From contig NZ_OY781884.1 in the NCBI RefSeq assembly GCF_963677155.1, positions 1,286,001-1,350,000 of the forward strand: 64,000 bases of DNA. The letters run 5' to 3'. Below are positions 50,336 to 62,694 of the stretch, one piece after another. Position 1 is the first letter of the stretch, and the number at the start of each line of letters is the position of its first letter. The stretch comes from an uncultured Draconibacterium sp. (lineage in GTDB: Bacteria > Bacteroidota > Bacteroidia > Bacteroidales > Prolixibacteraceae). Made by a program: the position numbers and the translations under genes. The notes beneath the pieces were generated by a model. It was given only the letters and a program-made list of their open reading frames with translations, searched no databases and was not told the origin of the DNA.

Positions 50336-52159
50336 TTAGTTGTAAGCATCATTTTGATCACACAATCGATTTTTCAATAACTCATCAGTAGGTATTGGCA
50401 TGTCCATTTTCTGAATATCGAAATCAAAAACACGGTAAGTATGCCAGTTATCTTTTTGCTCATCAGCATCCGAACTACCAACACCTTTAGGATAATTGAT
50501 ATTTATGTGATCTTCGATAAACCCGGAACGGATTAAATCCTGGGCGAGACACCACTCTGCATTGAATTCCTTACGACGTTCCTGTCCTAAAGCAAGCAAC
50601 CAAACCGGAGAAGCAAAACCTTTCTCTGATTTTAGCTGCGTATAGTACTCCTTTGCATCAGGGACAGTTACTATCGTTGTATTAAAAGGAAGAGGATAGG
50701 TATCGGGTTTTTCGATATCAGTAGCTTCCCTACTAATAAAGAATTGAGCCATCTCTTGATAATAAGGAAGATAGGTCGCAGTTAAAGTAGCTTCTTTACC
50801 TACTTCCATATTACCCCAGGCACGTTCACGAATTTGACCAATATAGCCCCATGCAGTGTCATCATCAGCTCCGTTCAAATTAAACAAACATTCCGCATAG
50901 TCAAGTAAAACATTCGCATAACGTTTATAATAAATCTGTTGAGGAGCCCATGGTGCCTGATAGTTTGCACGGGTTGTCCGAAAATATTTCAAACTCCAGA
51001 TAGCTGGGGCGGCCTCACCATCTTGTAACCAATGATAATGCACATTCGCAGGATTCGCAGTATAATCAACCTGATTATATGGATTATAACCATAGTTCGT
51101 TTCGGACTTCCAAGCTGGATCGATATCAGTCACTTTCGCAGTTACAGCTGATGCTTCACGACGCTTATCTCCCGGTTCATAAATACTCCACCATTCCCAC
51201 GATAGATACAAGGTTCCCCATCCTCCAACAGGCGGTGGTGCGACAAAATGAACCATCCAGTTATGGGCCTGAGACAGAGTACCAGAATTGTCCCACGCAG
51301 GACCTTCATCCAGAACCTCTTCCCAAATACACTCTTTTGTCCATACAGCTCCCGGATCCCACAAAGTAGTGAACGAAGGATTCAGTTCATATTTTCCACT
51401 TTCAATTACTTGTTTCAGAGCTGCAGCAGCAAGGGTATAATTCTCACTTGCTTTTTCAGGCACGCGAAAAGCCATCCACATATAAGCTTCGCCAAGGTAA
51501 GAAAGGGCAAATCCTTTAGTAATACGTCCGTACTGTCCATCCATCGGATCCCATTCCAATTCATCAACTGCCACTTTTAAATCATCAATAATAAAATTCC
51601 ACATTTCTTCATAAGTTTCAGCACGGGCCTTTTCCGGAGTATTTATGTAGTTTTCACCTGTTGCCAACATCGGTACACGACCAAAAGCTTTTGCTAGCCA
51701 CATGTAGAAAAAAGCGCGAATCCCCCTTGCTTGACCGTCAAGCGAAGTTTTCACAGAAGGTGTAACTGCTTCTGCAGTTTCAAGACCGGCAAGAAAATCG
51801 TTACACCTGGAAATAGCAGCATAAGCCTGTTTCCACCCAGTTAAAAGCTCCGGGCTACCTGCATCCCATGATTGCGAATTCCATTTTTTATCCCATCCTG
51901 TTGCCTGGGTATCCATTGTCGGATGGCCTCCGATAAATAAATTTGGTTTAATTCCCCAATCTCCGTCAATATCTGTCGGTAGCATCATCGTATAACAACC
52001 AATCAGACCTCCTTTGGCATCTTCATCACTTTTAAACATCTGGTCGGCAGCCAAAATAGAATAGTGATCGACTTTCAAGAAGTCTTCGCTACAGGAGCTT
52101 ATTCCTATTAGGATTAACACACTTGCAAGCGTATATAATATTTTTGATATTTTTTTCAT
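50336..52159 (-). CDS. SusD-like surface glycan-binding lipoprotein
   Basis: A 607-residue lipoprotein (Cys23 in ISSCSEDF). The tetratricopeptide-rich SusD fold is indicated by KVDHYS after the signal, LLTGWKQAYAAISRCNDFL (about 105-123), ARGIRAFFYMWLAKAFGRVPM and the C-terminal QERRKEFNAEW (about 545). SusD proteins sit on the SusC barrel at the cell surface and hand over oligosaccharides. Many tryptophans in the middle region could form the sugar-binding platform. It is 30 bases after SusC and ends in a strong terminator. No SusE-like second binding protein follows, which is unusual for a xylan locus. Confidence 0.95.
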   Translation of the reverse strand: MKKISKILYTLASVLILIGISSCSEDFLKVDHYSILAADQMFKSDEDAKGGLIGCYTMMLPTDIDGDWGIKPNLFIGGHPTMDTQATGWDKKWNSQSWDAGSPELLTGWKQAYAAISRCNDFLAGLETAEAVTPSVKTSLDGQARGIRAFFYMWLAKAFGRVPMLATGENYINTPEKARAETYEEMWNFIIDDLKVAVDELEWDPMDGQYGRITKGFALSYLGEAYMWMAFRVPEKASENYTLAAAALKQVIESGKYELNPSFTTLWDPGAVWTKECIWEEVLDEGPAWDNSGTLSQAHNWMVHFVAPPPVGGWGTLYLSWEWWSIYEPGDKRREASAVTAKVTDIDPAWKSETNYGYNPYNQVDYTANPANVHYHWLQDGEAAPAIWSLKYFRTTRANYQAPWAPQQIYYKRYANVLLDYAECLFNLNGADDDTAWGYIGQIRERAWGNMEVGKEATLTATYLPYYQEMAQFFISREATDIEKPDTYPLPFNTTIVTVPDAKEYYTQLKSEKGFASPVWLLALGQERRKEFNAEWCLAQDLIRSGFIEDHININYPKGVGSSDADEQKDNWHTYRVFDFDIQKMDMPIPTDELLKNRLCDQNDAYN

Positions 52160-52189: not shown

Positions 52190-55100
52190 TTAAAATTTGA
52201 CATTCAACCCAAGTGAAAATGTCCTTGCGTTAGGATAACGCCCAGTATCCAAGCCGGTATAAAGCACACTTCCTTGTCCTGCTTCCGGATCGCCATATTT
52301 ATTATAGCTGGAGAAAGTAGCCAGATTTTGCATGGCAACATATAAACGTGCACCCTCCATATGCAAGGTATTCAACATTGATTTGCTAAAATTATAGCCC
52401 AATTGAACAGTACTGATCTTGAAGAAATCTCCTTTCTTAACCCAGTGGTCAGAACCACGCATATTGTTATTCAAATCAAGGAATGACAAACGAGGTGTTG
52501 TAGTACTTTGATTTTGCTTTGTCCAGGCACTATTTGCAACATCAACCAAAACGTTAGGAGTAGTCCCATTATCACTCGGGAACATGTTAGATAATGTCAT
52601 TGCAGAATAAGAATATATTTTAACACCAGCAACTCCATAACAATAAACTGATAAATCAAAGTTTTTATACGATGTATTTAAGTTAAAACCATAGTTTAGT
52701 TTTGGAAAGCCGTCTCCTAAAACAGTCATATCCTCCTCGCTAAGATGTCCGTCATCGTTCAGGTCTTTATATTTAAAATCTCCAGGAACGGTTGCGGTAC
52801 CATTATTATATCCGTCGGGGTGCCCAGCTGCTATTGCAGCTTCATTGGCAGCATCTATTTCAGCCTGAGACTGGTAAATACCTTCGACCTCATATCCCCA
52901 GAAAGAACCTACGGCATAACCTTCACGCATAATCGAGTGACCGTTCCAGTGTGTCCCAGATGGAGCACCAATAGCACCTACGTTTGATCCATCGTCTGTA
53001 CTGCCTGTATTCTCTTTGAAAATGTCGGATCCAATCTCTATAATTTCGTTTTTAATGGTTGAACCGGTTATATTTACACCAATAGTCCAATCATCATTAA
53101 TTCGTTTTTTATAATCTGCACTAAATTCAAATCCTCGATTCTGTATCTCTCCATAGTTGGTGTATACTTCGGTGTAACCAGCGGAAGGACGTATTGCCTG
53201 ATCCAACAACAAATCTTTAGATGTACGGGTAAAATAATCTAATGTGAAGTTTAAATCACTGTTCAATACTCCTAAATCAATACCAACGTTACTTTGCTCA
53301 TTGGTCTCCCATTTCAATCTTGGATCAGTTAATGTTGGTGCAAGACCAGTAGCCAATTGCCTACTAGTACTCATCCCCGACTGACCATTCTGTCCGTAAA
53401 AGAAATACTGTATCTTACTAGATGTCAAAGCGGTAACAGACTTATCCGTTGCTCCTCCAGAGTTACCTGTTTGTCCCCAACCTAAACGAAGCTTCAAGTT
53501 GCTAATAGCAGTATTACCTTTCATGAAATTTTCTTCTGAAATACGCCATCCTGCAGCCGCTGAAGGGAAATTCCCCCACCTGTTATCTGCCCCGAAATTA
53601 GAAGACCCATCACGACGAATGGTAGCAGTCAAAATGTACCGATCTTTTAGAACATATTGAACACGACCAAAATATGACAATCCACGAGACTCGAGGTTAT
53701 ATGCCCCTGTACCGATTCTTGCTGCAGGATCCTTTGTCAAGCTAATATCACGGATGTTTTCTCCGGGAAAATCTTTTCCTGAGACGTTACTCCAGTTTCC
53801 AAAACCTTTGCTCACTGAATTACCCCCCATTAAAGTCAAATCGTGAATATCATTCTTCCATTTATAAGTCAAATAAGTTTCAATAGCAATATTATTATAA
53901 TTACTGTTATTAATTCCTAAATTGTATCTGGCATCATAATTGAATAATTTAACTTCTGTACCATCAGGAAAATAGCGTTTTTTGTTTCCCCAGAAATTAT
54001 ACCAATTGTTTGCTCTAAAATCATAAGAAGCTACCGACCGAAGGGTTAGCCCTTCTGCTAATTTGAGATTAATATATGTGCTTAGAAGTGTCCGGTTATT
54101 TTTGGTAACCCCAGTATTTTCCATTTGCTCGGCATAAATATTATTTTCCAGATTTGAATCGTTTGAACCAATGTCACCTTGTTCGGGTGCACCATATGTC
54201 CCATCAGCGTTTACAACATTAGGACTGACAATCTGGTTAGTTTCTGGATCAACATAGTCCATGGTTGGAGCTATGAAGGCCCAGTCTCGAAGAGAAGACA
54301 GGTTACCATTGTTACCGATACCGGCATTACTTCCTTGTGATTCAGAATGAGTAAAACTAAGGTCACCACCAATCTCAAGAAAATCTCCCACCTCAGTGGA
54401 TACACTAATACGACCGGTTAACCGTTTGTAACTTGTATTAATAACAATACCTTCATTATCCAAATAACCTAATGAGAAATGATGCTTCGTTTTTTCAGTT
54501 CCACCGGAACTTGAAAGATTGTACTGCTGCTTAAGAGAAGGACGTGTCATCTCTTTTTGCCAATCAATATTATTTCTTTTACCGTCATATTGTTCCGAGT
54601 AAATAGCATTAGCCAAACTTCCACCATCACTTTCTCGTGCCACACGTATGTTTCTTGCATATTGATCTACGTCTCCAACATCCAGTGTTGATGCCAATGT
54701 TTGCACACCAAAATTTGCAGAAAAAGTAATATTTGAAACGCCCGCCTTACCACGTTTAGTAGCAATCATTATAACACCATTGGCTCCTGCTGAACCATAA
54801 ATAGCAGTCGCAGAGGCATCCTTTAATATTTCTATTGTTTCAATATCATTAGGGTTTAGAAAATTAGCGTTGGTTCCCACCTGAACGCCATCAACAACGT
54901 ACAATGGGTCGGCCTTTCCTTGAATCGTAGCAACCCCACGAATACGAATAGCGGCATTGGCATCTGGCGCACCATCCTGTGAGGTAACCATAACTCCAGC
55001 TGCAGCTCCCTGTAACCCTTGTAAGATATTTGTAGGAGCCTTTCGCATCATTGATTCTGCATTCACTGAAGCAACTGCTCCAGAGATGTCGGTTTTTTTC

Positions 55101-55450
55101 ATGGTACCGTAACCAACAACTACAACCTCATCGAGTCCAACCACATCGGGTTTCATTGTAATGTTAAAAGAGGTTTGCGAACCAATTTCAACTTTCTGAA
55201 CCTCCATACCAACAAAGCTAAACACAAGAACTTTTGATCCCTGAGGAACTTCCAGAGTAAACTTACCATCAAAATCTGTTACTGTACCAATAGTAGTTTC
55301 TTGTACAGTAACCGAAACTCCCGGAATTGGACTACCCGTGTCATCGACTACAGCACCCTGTAATTTGATGTTTTGGCCAAAACCACAGAGTGTTAAGAGC
55401 ATCATAGGAAGCATCAAAAGTGCAACCTGAAATAATTTGCCTTTTTTCAT
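52190..55450 (-). CDS. SusC-like TonB-dependent outer-membrane transporter
   Basis: A 1086-residue receptor that imports oligosaccharides across the outer membrane. Signal about 1-25; carboxypeptidase-regulatory-like domain about 28-105 (LQGAVVDDTGSPIPGV); TonB-box-like region DEVVVVGYG (about 108-116); plug domain about 118-235 with LYVVDGVQV and ILKDASATAIYGS; then a 22-strand barrel ending in a short aromatic strand LGLNVKF. No extra N-terminal signalling domain is present, so control by an ECF/anti-sigma pair is not indicated. It is the first gene of the locus on this strand, preceded by a 935-base spacer. Confidence 0.95.
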   Translation of the reverse strand: MKKGKLFQVALLMLPMMLLTLCGFGQNIKLQGAVVDDTGSPIPGVSVTVQETTIGTVTDFDGKFTLEVPQGSKVLVFSFVGMEVQKVEIGSQTSFNITMKPDVVGLDEVVVVGYGTMKKTDISGAVASVNAESMMRKAPTNILQGLQGAAAGVMVTSQDGAPDANAAIRIRGVATIQGKADPLYVVDGVQVGTNANFLNPNDIETIEILKDASATAIYGSAGANGVIMIATKRGKAGVSNITFSANFGVQTLASTLDVGDVDQYARNIRVARESDGGSLANAIYSEQYDGKRNNIDWQKEMTRPSLKQQYNLSSSGGTEKTKHHFSLGYLDNEGIVINTSYKRLTGRISVSTEVGDFLEIGGDLSFTHSESQGSNAGIGNNGNLSSLRDWAFIAPTMDYVDPETNQIVSPNVVNADGTYGAPEQGDIGSNDSNLENNIYAEQMENTGVTKNNRTLLSTYINLKLAEGLTLRSVASYDFRANNWYNFWGNKKRYFPDGTEVKLFNYDARYNLGINNSNYNNIAIETYLTYKWKNDIHDLTLMGGNSVSKGFGNWSNVSGKDFPGENIRDISLTKDPAARIGTGAYNLESRGLSYFGRVQYVLKDRYILTATIRRDGSSNFGADNRWGNFPSAAAGWRISEENFMKGNTAISNLKLRLGWGQTGNSGGATDKSVTALTSSKIQYFFYGQNGQSGMSTSRQLATGLAPTLTDPRLKWETNEQSNVGIDLGVLNSDLNFTLDYFTRTSKDLLLDQAIRPSAGYTEVYTNYGEIQNRGFEFSADYKKRINDDWTIGVNITGSTIKNEIIEIGSDIFKENTGSTDDGSNVGAIGAPSGTHWNGHSIMREGYAVGSFWGYEVEGIYQSQAEIDAANEAAIAAGHPDGYNNGTATVPGDFKYKDLNDDGHLSEEDMTVLGDGFPKLNYGFNLNTSYKNFDLSVYCYGVAGVKIYSYSAMTLSNMFPSDNGTTPNVLVDVANSAWTKQNQSTTTPRLSFLDLNNNMRGSDHWVKKGDFFKISTVQLGYNFSKSMLNTLHMEGARLYVAMQNLATFSSYNKYGDPEAGQGSVLYTGLDTGRYPNARTFSLGLNVKF

Positions 55451-56385: not shown

Positions 56386-58902
56386 ATGAAGAATCTTTCT
56401 TTCCTCTTTTATTTTCTGATCGTATTCTCCTCTACTACTCTCAACGCACAGGAATTCAAACTTAACTCATCCGGTTATTTTCAAAACCATGGTGTAGATA
56501 TAATGTCTTTTGATGATATTTACCCTGAAGGACATCAGGGCGGTGTTTCGCTGATTATGCACGGGAACCGCATTGCCACCAATGGCGACATCAGACTGGA
56601 ACCCACTCCCGGACAATGGCAGCCAGTGCCTAAACAACGCAACCGCGTTACAAATGAGGATGAAAATACGATTACTGCGTATTTAAGTTTTCCCGACTCA
56701 TCACGCCACATTACAGGCTACAACCCTATGGTTTACCCCGATTTACAAATAAACTACACTGTAAATGTTGAAGGCAAGGGCAGCTCGGTTATCGTCACCG
56801 TTAATCTGGAGCAGCCTGTTCCACAAAATTACTTGGGCAAAGTGGGTTTTAATATGGAACTTTTCCCGGGAGCTTTGTTTGGCAAACCTTGGATTATGGA
56901 CGATAAAACGGGAATTTTCCCGCAACAACCCAACGGACCAACCCTTTACGAACCTTCTAATTACAAATATATTGGCGATTTTAATCCTGATGGAAAAGCA
57001 TCAGCTGAACAACTTGCCGGAGAAGGATACAGTCCAATAATTGCAGACGATATTATTGCCGAGCCTTATGCACAGGGGCACCACTTTGTGGTACGCCCAA
57101 ATGATGCTTACGGGAAATTCAGCATTGAGAGTAAAGGAGCTGCCTTAAAACTATACGATGGACGCATGAATCACAACAATGGTTGGTTTGTGGTGCGAAG
57201 CGAAATTCCCGCAGGAAAAACAAAACAGGCTATAAAATGGATCATTACACCTAACGTTGTTGAAGACTGGCTTTATACCCCGGTAGTTCAAACTTCGCAA
57301 ATTGGCTATCACGGCAAACAACAAAAAACAGCTATTATAGAGCTCGATAAACGCACCGAAAAAACAGAAACGCCTGCGCTATTCAAAATTACCGCTTCAG
57401 GTGAAGAAGAAATACTCAGTAAACCCGGAGAAGAATGGGGCCAGTTTTTGCGCTACAACTACCTGAAATTCGATTTCACGGAAATAAACGAGCCCGGACT
57501 TTACCAGGTGCGTTACGGAGATTCTACTTCTCCGGTTTTTCGGATTGATAACGCTGTTTACGGTCGAGGAGTTTGGCAACCGGTATTAGAATATTTCTTA
57601 CCCGTCCAGATGTGTCACATGCGGGTAAACGAAAAATACCGTGTTTGGCACGACGAATGCCACATGGACGACGCACGGATGGCTCCCGTTAATTTTAATC
57701 ACATCGATGGCTACGCGCAAGGAGCCTCCACTTTAACCGACTATTCGCCCGGCGACATTGTTCCCGGATTAAATATTGGTGGCTGGCACGATGCCGGCGA
57801 CTTCGATTTGCGCGTAGAATCGCAGGCTGGCGAAGCTTATATTCTAGCACTTGCCTACGAAGCATTTAGGGTGGACTATGATGCCACTTCCATCGATCAG
57901 CAAAAAAGAATTACTGAAATCCACCAGCCCGATGGGAAAGCCGACATCTTGCAGCAGATTGAAAATGGTGCGCTTACTGTTATTGGAGGATATCGTGCTC
58001 TGGGCCGTCTTTACCGCGGGATAATTTGTAACAACCTACGGCAATATGTAATACTGGGCGATGCGGCAGCAATGACCGACAACAAACCAGGCAATGAAGA
58101 CGACCGCTGGGTATTTACCGAAGATAATCCTTACCGCGAATTAACCACTGCCGCACAAATGGCCGCCACAGCCCGTGTGCTGAAAGGTTTTAACGATACA
58201 CTCAGCACGCAAGCTCTTGATTGTGCCAAAACCTTATTTGAGGTTACAGAAGCAAGCGGACGTTCCAAAGCGGCAAAAATACATGCAGCAACCGAGCTGT
58301 ACCTTACTACCGGCGATGATATTTACAAAAACTACCTGCTCTCCGAAACCGAATTTATTACACAAGCCATTAGATTTGTTGGTTGGTACATTGGCCGTGC
58401 CGAGAAAAAAATCAATGATCCTGATTTTACCAAAGCAATCAGGGAAGCCATGAGCGGACTAAACGAACATATAAAAAGACAAGGTGCCGAAACTCCTTAC
58501 GGAATTCCTTATCGCCCGCGTGTTTGGGGTGCCGGCTGGGATATTCAGGCTTTTGGTTTCAGGCAATACTTTTTGCATATGTCCTACCCCGATATTTTTA
58601 GCTCAGAATATATTTACAATGCGTTGAATTTTATTTTGGGTTGTCATCCGGGTTCCAATACTTCTTCGTTTGCTTCGGGAATCGGTGCAAGATCGGCAAC
58701 TGTTGGCTATGGCTTAAATCGCGCCGACTGGTCATATATTCCGGGTGGCGTTGTGTCGGGTACGGGACTTATTCGCCCCGATTTCCCAGAACTGCTTGAA
58801 TTTCCCTACATGTGGCAACAGGTTGAATACGTGGTTGGCGGTGGCTCGTCACATTATATGTTTCTGGTTCTTGCTGCTCAACAACTATTGAAAGACGAGT
58901 GA
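56386..58902 (+). CDS. GH9 glycosidase with large extra N-terminal domain
   Basis: An 838-residue exported enzyme (signal about 1-22). The catalytic (alpha/alpha)6 barrel (about 390-838) has GGWHDAGDFD with the base pair Asp469/Asp472 and a C-terminal region WQQVEYVVGGG with the likely acid Glu. An Ig-like CelD_N domain lies at about 298-388 (VVQTSQIGYHG). In front of it is an extra beta-rich region of about 270 residues (about 25-295) that I do not recognise. GH9 enzymes cut beta-1,4-glucans, xyloglucan or glucosaminides. The gene starts a three-gene plus-strand operon and its stop overlaps the next start by four bases (ATGA). Confidence 0.87.
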   Translation: MKNLSFLFYFLIVFSSTTLNAQEFKLNSSGYFQNHGVDIMSFDDIYPEGHQGGVSLIMHGNRIATNGDIRLEPTPGQWQPVPKQRNRVTNEDENTITAYLSFPDSSRHITGYNPMVYPDLQINYTVNVEGKGSSVIVTVNLEQPVPQNYLGKVGFNMELFPGALFGKPWIMDDKTGIFPQQPNGPTLYEPSNYKYIGDFNPDGKASAEQLAGEGYSPIIADDIIAEPYAQGHHFVVRPNDAYGKFSIESKGAALKLYDGRMNHNNGWFVVRSEIPAGKTKQAIKWIITPNVVEDWLYTPVVQTSQIGYHGKQQKTAIIELDKRTEKTETPALFKITASGEEEILSKPGEEWGQFLRYNYLKFDFTEINEPGLYQVRYGDSTSPVFRIDNAVYGRGVWQPVLEYFLPVQMCHMRVNEKYRVWHDECHMDDARMAPVNFNHIDGYAQGASTLTDYSPGDIVPGLNIGGWHDAGDFDLRVESQAGEAYILALAYEAFRVDYDATSIDQQKRITEIHQPDGKADILQQIENGALTVIGGYRALGRLYRGIICNNLRQYVILGDAAAMTDNKPGNEDDRWVFTEDNPYRELTTAAQMAATARVLKGFNDTLSTQALDCAKTLFEVTEASGRSKAAKIHAATELYLTTGDDIYKNYLLSETEFITQAIRFVGWYIGRAEKKINDPDFTKAIREAMSGLNEHIKRQGAETPYGIPYRPRVWGAGWDIQAFGFRQYFLHMSYPDIFSSEYIYNALNFILGCHPGSNTSSFASGIGARSATVGYGLNRADWSYIPGGVVSGTGLIRPDFPELLEFPYMWQQVEYVVGGGSSHYMFLVLAAQQLLKDE

Positions 58903-60251
58903 TGAGTAGTAGATTTACGATTCTACCAGAAAAGCCCGTTATACGATTGACCAAAAAATCAGCTAGTCGTAAACAAGTTGCGACGATTAAGTTTCTCGTA
59001 TTTTTTACAGGCATTTTATACCTACAGATTTTGGTTAGCGGGTGTTCAACACCTTCTTCCGAAATAAAAACAACCCGTTTGGTTTCGGAAACCACCAATA
59101 ATCTGACTGAAAATATTCTGCCGTTCTGGGAAAATTACACCCTCGACCCTAACGGAGGATTTTACGGAATAGTACTTAACGATGGGACTCCGGTTCCGAA
59201 AGCTCCAAAAGGCTGTGTTCTGAATGCTCGAATATTATGGACTTTCTCCAATGCATATATGCACTTTGAAAACGAGGCATACAAGGAGCTGGCCAACCGT
59301 GCACAGGAATATTTCCTTACCCATTTTATTGATAAGGAATTTGGCGGCACCTATTGGGTAGTTCAGGCTGATGGCACTCCACTCGACGACCAAAAACAGT
59401 GCTACGGTATAGCTTTTGCCATTTACGGGCTGGCAGCTCATTATCAGGCCACGGGTAAACACGAAAGCCTGCAACAAGCCATTAGCTTATACCGTAAAAT
59501 GGAAGAGAAGGCTTTTGATCCACTGAACGGCGGCTACATCGAATCATTTACACGCGACTGGAAAACGCCCAAACACTACGGTTATGATGGAACAGGCGTA
59601 GCTGCCAAAACTATGAATACCCACTTACACCTGCTCGAAGCTTATACGCAATTGTACAGAGTCTGGCCTGATTCCGGATTGAAAAATCAGCTCAAAGGAC
59701 TTGTCAATGTATTTCTGGAAAAAATCATCGATAAAAATAGGTGGCACCAAAATCTATTTCTATCCAGAGAATGGGAAAATCTGGAGCATATCGATTCCTA
59801 CGGGCATGACGTGGAATTGTCGTGGTTACTGCTAGAGGCTGCAGAACAGCTTCAAGAGGAAATATTGATAAAACAAACAAAAGATATTGCCTTAAAACTC
59901 GTGGATACACAAATGCAGGAAGGCAGAAATGCCGATGGCTCCTTACTTTACGAACTTAGAGATGGTGAAATTGATGGTAATCTGAGTTGGTGGCCACAGG
60001 CCGAATCGGTAATCGCTTTTTTTAATGCCTGGCAAATCAGCGGAGATGAAAAATATCTGAATGCCGCGATAACAACCTGGCAATGGATAAAAGATAAGCT
60101 AGTTGACACCGAATACGGAGGTTGGTACGGAGGGCTTGGGCCCGATGGAAAACCTCTTATAGGGCAACCAAAAGTAAGTTTATGGAAATGTCCCTATCAC
60201 AACAGCCGAATGGCTTTTGAACTGCTTGCCAGAACCGAAAGACCTAATTAA
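58899..60251 (+). CDS. AGE-superfamily (cellobiose 2-epimerase-like) lipoprotein
   Basis: A 450-residue protein of the N-acylglucosamine/cellobiose 2-epimerase superfamily, which interconverts glucose/mannose-type ends. The (alpha/alpha)6 barrel has RILWTFSNAY, YGIAFAIYGLAAHY, MNTHLHLLEAY, SYGHDVELSWLL and, near the end, WKCPYHNSRM with the family His. The N-terminus has a long basic stretch and a hydrophobic segment ending in a lipobox (LVSGC, Cys49). Known cellobiose 2-epimerases are usually cytoplasmic, so export is unusual. The 30-residue N-region before the hydrophobic part is long; a later non-ATG start is possible. It overlaps GH9 by four bases, so it is translationally coupled. Confidence 0.85.
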   Translation: MMSSRFTILPEKPVIRLTKKSASRKQVATIKFLVFFTGILYLQILVSGCSTPSSEIKTTRLVSETTNNLTENILPFWENYTLDPNGGFYGIVLNDGTPVPKAPKGCVLNARILWTFSNAYMHFENEAYKELANRAQEYFLTHFIDKEFGGTYWVVQADGTPLDDQKQCYGIAFAIYGLAAHYQATGKHESLQQAISLYRKMEEKAFDPLNGGYIESFTRDWKTPKHYGYDGTGVAAKTMNTHLHLLEAYTQLYRVWPDSGLKNQLKGLVNVFLEKIIDKNRWHQNLFLSREWENLEHIDSYGHDVELSWLLLEAAEQLQEEILIKQTKDIALKLVDTQMQEGRNADGSLLYELRDGEIDGNLSWWPQAESVIAFFNAWQISGDEKYLNAAITTWQWIKDKLVDTEYGGWYGGLGPDGKPLIGQPKVSLWKCPYHNSRMAFELLARTERPN

Positions 60252-60279
60252 GATCTTACTCAACCAATAAAAGCCCATT

Positions 60280-62160
60280 ATGAAACGAATTATTATTTTA
60301 CTTGTTCTCACCGTTATTACTCTGTTTTCGCAAGCCGGAAATTACAAAAATTATAAGGTGTCGGTGTACGTAAGAGCATACGAGGTAGAAAAAATGAAAG
60401 ACATGAATTGGCTCGACTCCACCTGGACCATCATTTCGAATCAGGTAAAAATCGACAAAATTTACCTGGAAACGCACCGCGATTTACTGATCGTTCCCGG
60501 TGAAACACTCGAACAAGCCAAAAAATATTTTCTGGATAAAGGCCTGGAAGTTGGTGGCGGAATCACCTACACCATCAACGAGTCGAACAATTTTGAAACC
60601 TTTTGCTATTCCAATACTGAACACCGGGAAATTGTGCAACAGATTGCCGAACACACTGCCCGTCATTTTGATGATTTTATTCTGGACGATTTCTTTTTTA
60701 CCAGCTGTAAATCCGATATCGAAATTGAAGCCAAAGGCGACATGAGCTGGAGAGAGTACCGAACAAAGCTAATGACCGAAGCCGGGAAAAAACTAGTTCT
60801 GGAACCAGCTAAAAAAGTTAATCCCAATGTAAAAGTGATCATCAAATACCCCAATTGGTACGATCATTTTCAGGGGCTGGGATTTGACCTGCAAAACGGG
60901 CCACACCTGTTTGATGGAGTGTGGACAGGCACAGAAACCCGGGATCCGTCGTATGCACAGCATCTGCAAAATTACCTGAGTTACAACATTATTCGCTATT
61001 TCAACAACTTACGCCCTGGCTACAACTTTGGTGGATGGGTTGATTCCGGCGGATCAAACATGGGAATGGATCGCTATGCCGAACAACTCTGGCTGACGAT
61101 GTTTGCCAAAGCGCCCGAAATTATGCTATTTGCTTATAACCAGCTCGTGGGTGTGCAACTGCGCCCCGAAGTTCACCGTAAGCAGTGGCAAGGTATGTGC
61201 ACCAGTTTTGATTACGACGATATGATGAAACCCATTCAGTTGCCCGATGGTAAAATTGTTACACCGTCGACCATAGCACGTGTGGCCGGTGTAGCATTAG
61301 AACAGGTTGATGATGTTGTTGGCAAGTTGGGTAAGCCAATCGGTATTAAATCATACAAGCCTTATCACTCGCTGGGCGACGATTTCCTGCAAAACTACCT
61401 CGGAATGATTGGTCTGCCCATGGATATGTATTCCGAATTCCCAACCGATCAAAAAGTTGTATTGCTTACCGAACAAGCGAAATACGACAGCGATATTGTC
61501 GACAAAATGAAAAAACAGTTGCAGAAAGGTGGCGATGTAGTGATTACCAGCGGCTTGCTAAAAGCCATACAAAACGACATTGCCGACATTGTAGAGTTAC
61601 GTGCAGGAGACAAGGATGCCCTGGTTAACGATTTTGGTTTTTGGGGTAGCACGAACAAAGATATTCTGATTCCTCAAGTGCAGTATCAAACCAACGATGC
61701 CTGGGAAATTGTTAGTGCCGGAAGACCTCTGTCAAATGGCGTTAGCGGTTATCCAATACTGCTTCAGACTCAGTATTCCAAAGGAAACTTGTATGTCATA
61801 ACAATCCCCAACGATTTTGGCAACCTTTACGATCTGCCCGACGGAGTTTTGAATGTATTTCGCCAGGTAATGAGCAAAGATTTGGGAATATACATAGAAG
61901 GCCCGGCCAAAGTTGGCTTGTTTGTATACGACAATAAAACTTTTATCATTGAATCGTTTCTTGATGAACCTGTAACAATTCAATTGGTTAGCACCGAAGA
62001 CATTTCAAATATCACCGACATTCCTGAAGGGGTAAAAATTGAAAAACTGCCCGAAGAAACTCCAAGCTTCTTTAACCAACGCATGAGAGGTACTAAAAAG
62101 ACCTGCAAATTCAGGATTACTTTAATGCCACATTCGTATCGGGTTTTTAAGAAAGATTGA
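60280..62160 (+). CDS. Unrecognised exported protein, candidate novel glycosidase
   Basis: A 626-residue protein with a signal peptide (about 1-19) that I cannot place in a named family. The first 380 residues alternate strands and helices as in a TIM barrel, with acidic clusters at strand ends: ILDDFFF (Asp136/Asp137), KIYLETHRD and GVWTGTETRD (Glu219). A Rossmann-like segment follows (about 391-430, VVLLTEQAKYD...GGDVVITSG), then a C-terminal beta domain (about 545-626). Barrel, then Rossmann-like, then beta domain is the layout of GH42-type galactosidases, so a glycosidase is a reasonable guess. It is 28 bases after the epimerase gene and ends the operon. I see no family-defining motif. 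Confidence 0.8.
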   Translation: MKRIIILLVLTVITLFSQAGNYKNYKVSVYVRAYEVEKMKDMNWLDSTWTIISNQVKIDKIYLETHRDLLIVPGETLEQAKKYFLDKGLEVGGGITYTINESNNFETFCYSNTEHREIVQQIAEHTARHFDDFILDDFFFTSCKSDIEIEAKGDMSWREYRTKLMTEAGKKLVLEPAKKVNPNVKVIIKYPNWYDHFQGLGFDLQNGPHLFDGVWTGTETRDPSYAQHLQNYLSYNIIRYFNNLRPGYNFGGWVDSGGSNMGMDRYAEQLWLTMFAKAPEIMLFAYNQLVGVQLRPEVHRKQWQGMCTSFDYDDMMKPIQLPDGKIVTPSTIARVAGVALEQVDDVVGKLGKPIGIKSYKPYHSLGDDFLQNYLGMIGLPMDMYSEFPTDQKVVLLTEQAKYDSDIVDKMKKQLQKGGDVVITSGLLKAIQNDIADIVELRAGDKDALVNDFGFWGSTNKDILIPQVQYQTNDAWEIVSAGRPLSNGVSGYPILLQTQYSKGNLYVITIPNDFGNLYDLPDGVLNVFRQVMSKDLGIYIEGPAKVGLFVYDNKTFIIESFLDEPVTIQLVSTEDISNITDIPEGVKIEKLPEETPSFFNQRMRGTKKTCKFRITLMPHSYRVFKKD

Positions 62161-62327: not shown

Positions 62328-62638
62328 TTAAAACAAGTACAAAAAAGCCAGCAAAAGAAATGCGGTAAGAATGATAACATATTGGAGTATAGCTGTACCT
62401 ACAACTAAATCATCGCCAAACATAGTAGTTTGCACATCATAAATTTTACCCAATACGGATTGAGTAATAGCTCCACCAAGGAAGCCAATTCCTCCCACAA
62501 CGGCTAATCCCCAAGCCCCGCTTATTGGTCCTTTTTCGGCAACTACTCTCAACATATTCGGCAAAAAAATCCTATGCCCAGTGCAAAAACCGTGGCCGAT
62601 GCAAATAACATTAGGGATTTCCCTACCATTTGTACGAT
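62328..62638 (-). pseudogene. MFS transporter remnant (C-terminal part), frameshifted
   Basis: The minus-strand frame from 62328 encodes about 75 residues of a major-facilitator C-terminus: VVAEKGPISGAWGLAVVGG, GGAITQSVLGKIYD and a final hydrophobic helix. Upstream the similarity continues in another frame (GKSLMLFASATVFALGIGFF), joined at a run of seven A/T bases (62563-62569) where one extra base would restore the frame. A stop (62645-62647) lies just upstream in that frame, and the first ten or so helices are missing. It is a decayed sugar- or anion-permease fragment, not a working gene. Confidence 0.75.
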
Positions 62639-62694
62639 TTTCTCCTACCTCGAAGTAGGTTTTCACCTGTAGCATTTTATCTCACTCCAAGGTA

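Follow-up and report, generated by a model that had tools for sequence, protein, structure and literature searches.

An operon in an uncultured Draconibacterium sp. encodes an exported epimerase of the cellobiose 2-epimerase (CE) type between a GH9-type glycosidase and a glycosidase-like barrel protein. It lies in a stretch of 64,000 nucleotides, hereafter the window, which spans positions 1286001 to 1350000 of a 5.27-Mb genome (G000) assembled as one contig (NZ_OY781884.1). All three genes are on the plus strand, with the GH9 gene at 56386-58902 (838 aa, ATG start), the epimerase gene at 58899-60251 (450 aa, GTG start), and the barrel gene at 60280-62160 (626 aa, ATG start) of the window; the first two overlap by 4 bases (1 base if the epimerase starts at the alternative ATG at 58902), and 28 bases separate the epimerase and barrel genes. 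Export signals are read in all three proteins, judged by eye rather than with SignalP, and those of the epimerases were additionally checked by a hydrophobicity scan. A first-pass annotation of the sequence had described the tight packing, which agrees with these coordinates, and an exported GH9, an exported AGE-superfamily epimerase with a lipobox, and an exported unrecognised barrel, which agree with Pfam, PDB matches, and the by-eye signals. That an exported reducing-end epimerase works with exported glycosidases is well supported by sequence, and the same level of support applies to its sharing an operon with two glycosidase-like proteins that are themselves exported. We give about an even chance to the fuller reading, in which the operon is an extracytoplasmic, most likely periplasmic, cassette processing beta-1,4-linked gluco- and manno-oligosaccharides.

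The epimerase belongs to Pfam family PF07221, and its nearest PDB entries are nine cellobiose 2-epimerase chains (E 6e-103 to 8e-80), ranked above other AGE members. Its score against the NCBIfam equivalog NF041848 is 318.5 bits, below the cut-off of 800, and by sequence it is CE-type without being a member of that equivalog. Residues R111, Y169, H244, H303, W364, W365, W429, and H434 are identical in 28 of 28 aligned CEs, and His242, a histidine in the window protein, is Asn or Ser in 6 of the 28. In 3wkf, the second-best chain, R66, H259, W385, and H390 align with R111, H303, W429, and H434, and we take the conserved R, H, and W residues to be the CE active site. The mature part is under purifying selection (pN/pS of 0.13 to 0.24 by substitution counts). 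The earlier label of a sugar 2-epimerase can thus be refined to a CE-type enzyme that would act on the reducing ends of oligosaccharides, C2 epimerisation of beta-1,4 disaccharides being the predicted activity.

Export of the epimerase is strongly supported by its N-terminal sequence and that of its orthologues. The signal peptide (58899-59045) has a 31-residue n-region, a hydrophobic stretch, and the lipobox LVSGC, with Cys49 encoded at 59043-59045. The lipobox Cys is kept in three orthologues within the genus (IGC in G005, CGC in G020, and TGC in G013); the G013 gene has a stop within the n-region and a complete short lipoprotein signal from the Met after that stop. The epimerases of the second G006 locus and of G033 have classical signal peptides ending in ASAQ. 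The N-terminal codons show pN/pS values of 0.21 to 0.50 in the n-region (G013 excluded) and 0.31 to 0.48 in the hydrophobic part plus lipobox, with few sites in both. Among 53 CEs, the 12-residue hydrophobic peak is at least 1.80 in the 18 labelled exported and at most 1.55 in the other 35, including that of locus L114. The first-pass annotation had allowed for a start codon that would give a cytoplasmic protein, and the conservation of the signal in orthologues lets export stand. Because the acidic run after the lipobox Cys is absent in the genus (STPSSE, STSSSE), we infer that the epimerase faces the periplasm rather than the outer surface.

Exported CEs form a lineage of their own. A tree of 53 CEs groups 15 exported ones and that of L114 in one clade (support 100/97) that is separate from the sampled cytoplasmic CEs, and the lipoprotein CEs of L200 and L210 are sister to it, all 18 grouping with support 100/98; a further exported CE, L199 (genome G148), is placed elsewhere. 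The L114 epimerase open reading frame (ORF) lacks a signal, and a sequencing or real frameshift is likely because the upstream sequence contains a signal-like stretch in a different frame and the GH9 gene of that locus is split as well. The trees omit the partial epimerase L123_15, the second omits seven distant AGE rows including lipoprotein L056, and the third uses 28 chosen rows. In the consulted sections of the open-licence literature searched, including PMC5094572, PMC12704710, PMC6643232, PMC7105311, PMC6784887, and PMC4285296, no exported CE is described. Among other epimerases encountered, L056 is a distant AGE lipoprotein with a lipobox, 31 to 34% identical to the window epimerase and outside the exported clade, and genomes G031 and G011 hold AGE matches of 34 to 35%. 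The exported CE-type epimerases at L199 (9549-10838) and L200 (2745-4160) adjoin MR_MLE enolase-superfamily genes, and that of L210 adjoins a 3-keto-disaccharide hydrolase gene.

The barrel protein, with a signal peptidase I (SPI)-type signal peptide (MKRIIILLVLTVITLFSQA, by eye), matches nothing in Pfam or NCBIfam at E 0.001, and a sequence comparison with PDB at E 1 likewise gives no match. An AlphaFold2 model built from 65 sequences (pLDDT 91.6, pTM 0.91) predicts a (beta/alpha)8 barrel followed by a GH42-like middle domain and a beta domain. Foldseek places chains of the GH164 beta-mannosidase Bs164 at ranks 1 to 25 (E from 2.2e-20) and GH42 thereafter; an earlier model from 16 sequences (pLDDT 73.6), now superseded, had placed GH42 first and GH164 second. 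The predicted model therefore has the GH164/GH42 fold and domain order, and the protein called unrecognised in the first-pass annotation, though still without a Pfam name, now has a predicted relationship of fold. The underlying alignment started from 94 ORFs, 86 of which were 560 to 660 aa with intact ends, and 64 of these at below 88% identity were used. Among the positions that do not vary across the 65 sequences, D136 is the last residue of strand 4 (132-136), D137 comes directly after it, D255 is the last residue of strand 7 (249-255), E219 stands where strand 6 ends, and E64 and R67 are at strand 2. D137, D255, and E219 are candidate active-site acids.

Bs164 and the GH42 beta-galactosidases share with the barrel protein the barrel, a trimerisation-type domain, and a beta domain, as far as the consulted parts of the Bs164 report (PMC7105311) describe them. 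They differ in that the barrel protein has no detectable sequence similarity to them and, by strand order, carries D137 and D255 in place of the strand-4 Glu160 and strand-7 Glu297 of Bs164 (PMC7105311). Membership in GH164 or GH42 was rejected on these two grounds. The protein is best described as a member of a separate glycosidase-like family with GH164/GH42 architecture, unnamed in the libraries searched, and confidence in the predicted fold is high. The family, to which at least 558 of at least 593 pattern matches belong, is widespread in Bacteroidales, and an assigned function would improve the annotation of polysaccharide utilization loci (PULs). A second barrel subfamily (26 to 28% identity) occurs in L082-L087. 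In L082, L085, L086, and L087 it lies at most three genes from a protein cluster for which the L082 member gives DUF1349 and beta-helix matches, and in L082, L084, and L085 a metallophosphoesterase-type gene adjoins it (the Pfam assignments are those of L082).

The GH9 protein consists of an SPI-type signal peptide (MKNLSFLFYFLIVFSSTTLNAQ, by eye), an N-terminal region of about 290 residues with no Pfam family match, a CelD_N Ig domain (298-381), and a GH9 domain (PF00759, 417-770). The Pfam score is weak yet passing (48.5 bits against a cut-off of 27.7). D469 and D472, in the motif GGWHDAGD, and E814 are presumably the catalytic residues and do not vary among the 37 homologues aligned, a set of rows that includes duplicate loci from the same genomes (the same gene fetched twice).

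We searched 61 genomes, 37 of them of the same genus, and found a CE of at least 66% identity in six (G000, G005, G006, G013, G020, and G033). The complete trio is present in five loci, those of G000, G005, G013, G020, and the second G006 locus; identity to the window is 82 to 91% per gene in G005, G013, and G020, which are three other species, and 66 to 82% in the second G006 locus. Five further loci (G002, G010, G024, G030, and the first G006 locus) have an adjacent GH9-barrel pair without an epimerase. A decayed epimerase in these gaps was considered and rejected, with no recognisable remnants beyond short chance matches and only the barrel-side leader matching. In G033 the epimerase stands alone behind an apparent GH9 C-terminal tail (by eye), G029 retains only GH9 and barrel fragments, and G017 retains a GH9 fragment. 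Because five trios stand against five pairs in the genus, the epimerase is, on the gene orders seen, an optional member gained or lost within a GH9-barrel unit.

Outside the genus, the best 80 of a larger number of barrel loci in named genomes were examined, of which 79 gave a barrel ORF (that of L144 was unrecovered). Within three ORFs of the barrel, these 79 have GH9 in 16, CE in 12, GH3 in 12, a GH30-like protein in 6, GH31 in 5, GH2 in 3, and GH26 in 2; these are lower bounds, with one reference protein used per family and the other-type GH9 of L111 uncounted. Two of the 12 CE-barrel loci are from the genus (L096 and L098) and eight carry a CE of the exported clade (L106, L110, L111, L114, L118, L119, L122, and L139). 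The exported CE adjoins the barrel gene in Tannerellaceae, Tannerella, Prevotellaceae, and Symbiothrix. The order GH9-epimerase-barrel recurs in L118 and, with GH9 split, in L114. The order in L111 is a different GH9, bearing a secretion tail, followed by the barrel gene and then the epimerase gene. After the exported CE and barrel genes, L118 and L139 encode a GH26 that has a signal of its own. The trio looked for in other genomes is thus conserved, also beyond the genus, although not as the fixed three-gene set first proposed: the five GH9-barrel pairs rule out an invariable unit, and the association is rather one of the exported CE with the barrel, plus GH9, GH26, or a GH30-like enzyme.

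An even draw of 393 genomes across the order points the same way. A CE at E <1e-120 is found in four (G000, G201, G213, and G265), in lists extending to 1e-108 so that weaker exported CEs were possibly missed, and the barrel proper (E <1e-200) is found in 14, with three more holding only the distant subfamily. All four of these core exported-CE genomes carry the barrel proper (hypergeometric 1.0e-6, or 2.9e-5 without the window genome, with E cut-offs set after viewing the lists and genomes treated as independent). G265 has the trio, and in G201 the epimerase and barrel genes lie next to each other in convergent orientation, each accompanied by a GH9. Of the draw's remaining 13 barrel loci, three have a CE within three ORFs, one of these CEs being cytoplasmic (L229, whose contig equals that of L140 in length), and four have a GH9. 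In L104 and L113 the GH9 and barrel genes are among GH31, GH2, and SusC/SusD-type genes, and these are xyloglucan-like loci. We take a set of GH9, GH31, GH2, and GH3 to be the composition of a xyloglucan utilization locus; L104 and L113 are alike in these features and unlike in the barrel family, which is not described in the parts of the literature consulted, and the stretches examined there have no epimerase.

These distributions bear on whether GH9 and barrel are the real unit, with the epimerase a passenger or an enzyme for a different sugar. Within the genus, pairs equal trios in number (five against five), and in G033 an epimerase persists on its own, preceded by no more than a GH9 tail. 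Yet the active site is fully kept, the mature part is under purifying selection, and the epimerase recurs beside the barrel gene in other families, and we regard a passenger role as unlikely.

The partnership of an exported CE with a glycosidase is strengthened by a gene fusion. L196 (G213) is a single 1,011-aa ORF with a signal peptide, a CE part extending to residue 418, and a GH30-like domain starting at about residues 415 to 421, and a GH9 gene is next on the same strand. The CE part is 46% identical to the window epimerase and falls within the exported clade in the tree of 28 proteins. The GH30-like part is 49 to 52% identical to its homologues, and the alignment begins at residues 20 to 29 of five of them, at or near the ends of their signal peptides, and at residue 51 of L150, whose ORF start looks extended. 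Pfam detects only the epimerase part, and the GH30 label comes from homologue L110, at 22.1 bits just below the cut-off of 23, and from weak PDB matches of the L139 homologue to GH30-type xylan enzymes. In L106, L108, L110, and L150 the barrel gene is immediately followed by a gene for a homologue of the GH30-like domain; in L139, where GH26 comes after the epimerase and barrel genes, the homologue lies one gene further. A second candidate fusion, in L206 (7323-10820), where the ORF of a cytoplasmic CE continues into a GH3-like protein, was rejected since the GH3 part retains an internal lipoprotein signal; it is probably a lost stop or an assembly fault.

Epimerases are already known from mannan PULs, where the epimerase and a GH130 are predicted or proposed to be cytoplasmic in the reports as consulted in part (PMC12704710, PMC6643232, PMC6784887), and EpiA of S. 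copri is described as converting mannobiose, cellobiose, and mannosylglucose into an equilibrium mixture (PMC12704710). As far as those accounts go, the window system resembles the EpiA and GH130 mannan PULs (Segatella copri PUL 7, PMC12704710; a moose-rumen Prevotella PUL, PMC6784887) in enzyme type, active site, and class of glycan utilization locus, and window-type CEs lie near GH26 in some relatives; it differs in that the CE is exported and partnered by a GH164-like barrel and GH9. The canonical arrangement, a cytoplasmic CE beside a mannosylglucose phosphorylase, is not what is found, since the window CE is exported and G000 has no GH130 of the CE-linked type. Its single CE match is the exported one. 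Of its GH130s, one shares 27% identity with the CE-linked GH130, another is a 172-aa fragment sharing 34%, and a further one is a lipoprotein that has no BLAST match to it. The last (L221, 6389-7534, at about 4.30 Mb in the genome) has a lipoprotein-like signal. Because G000 is without another CE, a CE-linked-type GH130, or GH26, the window system, as judged by gene content, is not the textbook mannan pathway.

A route in which the exported CE makes mannosylglucose outside, for import and cleavage by a cytoplasmic mannosylglucose phosphorylase of GH130, accordingly appears improbable. Runs of CE, GH130, and GH26 do occur within the genus (G006, G010, and G013; L222, L223, and L224), three genomes (G006, G013, and G020) hold both kinds of CE, and in L118 and L139 the exported CE is two genes before a GH26. 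The genomes with an exported CE fit such a route poorly, G000 for the reasons given; G005 has the exported CE, a distant 395-aa AGE protein, one GH130 of 28%, and no GH26 match, and G213 has neither a GH130 nor a GH26 match. A search for GH26 in 12 genomes gave no match in five (G000, G005, G002, G030, and G213), and an exclusively mannan-directed system was rejected for this reason. The evidence speaks against mannan as the substrate in the window organism.

How the cassette might work can be sketched from the domain assignments. GH9 would trim imported oligosaccharides to short beta-1,4-linked products, and the lipid-anchored CE would reversibly swap glucose and mannose at their reducing ends. 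The barrel protein, being glycosidase-like, would cleave these products, as GH30-like or GH26 enzymes may do elsewhere; epimerisation would let a narrow glycosidase, or a transporter, handle both epimers. CE being reversible, the glucose-to-mannose direction given as an example in the first-pass annotation may or may not apply, and so may its placing of epimerisation before cleavage or uptake. The operon, the export signals, the CE active site, the barrel fold (as predicted), the recurrence, and the natural fusion can be read from sequence. We infer the CE activity in the periplasm, the glycosidase activity of the barrel protein, the order of steps, and the substrate, for which the candidate contexts differ: xyloglucan-like loci (L104 and L113), nearby GH26 (L118 and L139), and an arabinoxylan-type PUL in the window.

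Several observations weigh against the cassette reading. As regards its members, the epimerase is missing from the five GH9-barrel pairs of the genus, and 67 of the 79 barrel loci are listed without a CE within three ORFs (some contigs are short). The remaining two barrel-linked CEs (L140 and L151) are cytoplasmic and belong to another clade. The genomes of the sister lipoprotein CEs L200 and L210 have no barrel match, which makes the association four of six (1.5e-5), and that of the separately exported L199 is also without a barrel; G213 has its fusion on one contig and its barrel gene on another. As regards the barrel protein as a glycosidase, a 65-sequence profile searched against PDB gave 18 chains at E <=10 with no glycosidase among them, so no GH164 or GH42. 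The superposition on Bs164 is loose (rmsd 7 to 9 A over all domains, TM about 0.6, 10% identity), and the GH164/GH42 Glu pair is replaced by Asp at strands 4 and 7, as assigned by strand order and not by superposition. As regards the substrate, G000 has no GH26 match, which speaks against a beta-mannan; it has two GH5 matches.

Alternatively, the epimerase could make an epimer that serves as a signal, inducing a PUL by way of a periplasmic sensor, instead of a catabolic intermediate. It is optional, periplasmic, and near SusC/D systems, and FecR-type cluster genes are present in the trio-type loci L072, L114, and L118 (Pfam for the L072 member), but the fusion and adjacency to hydrolases favour degradative catalysis and no sensor gene is seen fused to the epimerase, so we hold this to be very unlikely. 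Translation from the in-frame TTG at 59079-59081, just upstream of the mature domain, would yield an ordinary cytoplasmic CE and might be suggested by the unusually long n-region and the G013 stop, but it is scarcely credible and was rejected, given the short lipoprotein signal that G013 keeps, the standard signal peptides of two further orthologues, the constrained N-terminal codons (few sites), the Cys in all four lipoprotein orthologues, and the signals of fused and unfused homologues in other families.

If the periplasmic cassette is real, sugar epimerisation moves into the periplasm, a step added to Bacteroidetes glycan use that known models, in the parts of those reports consulted, place in the cytoplasm. 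More tentatively, and with somewhat less than even confidence, we propose a GH130-independent extracytoplasmic gluco/manno route, in which a dedicated exported CE clade serves coupled glycosidases, one of them founding a new Asp-based GH-A-like family. The exported clade, whose coupling to hydrolases goes as far as one fused gene, would provide a set of epimerases that are secreted and in many cases lipid-anchored, and it points to a little-studied way to digest plant fibre outside the cytoplasm. The CE enzyme kind itself is already known; what appears to be new here is the exported clade with its glycosidase-like partner family. CEs are used industrially for epilactose and lactulose.

Upstream, the operon is divergent to a SusC-like TonB-dependent transporter (52190-55450, minus strand), followed by its partner, a SusD-like lipoprotein (50336-52159, minus strand); both assignments are from Pfam and relatives. 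SusC homologues 63 to 69% identical to that of the window are divergent to GH9 in seven of the nine relative loci that have a GH9-barrel pair or trio (G002, G005, G010, G013, G020, G024, and G030), with SusD beside SusC in all seven except G005, whose stretch ends there; the SusCs of both G006 loci are less similar (32% and 46%). These genes belong to a large minus-strand PUL (22125-55450) with GH98, GH97, GH31, GH27-like, GH127, arabinofuranosidase, esterases, SusCD, four GH43-containing proteins, and a Xyl3A-type GH3, a content that reads as the complex arabinoxylan type.

Downstream, a 115-aa ORF (62328-62675, minus strand) is a fragment of a major facilitator superfamily (MFS) transporter. 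It is 76 to 77% identical over 86 aa to a 403-aa MFS transporter (MFS_1) that adjoins the barrel gene in five relative loci. In G030, GFO/IDH/MocA, ThuA, and SusD genes lie beyond the intact transporter, and the window genome seems to have lost this MFS-associated cluster.

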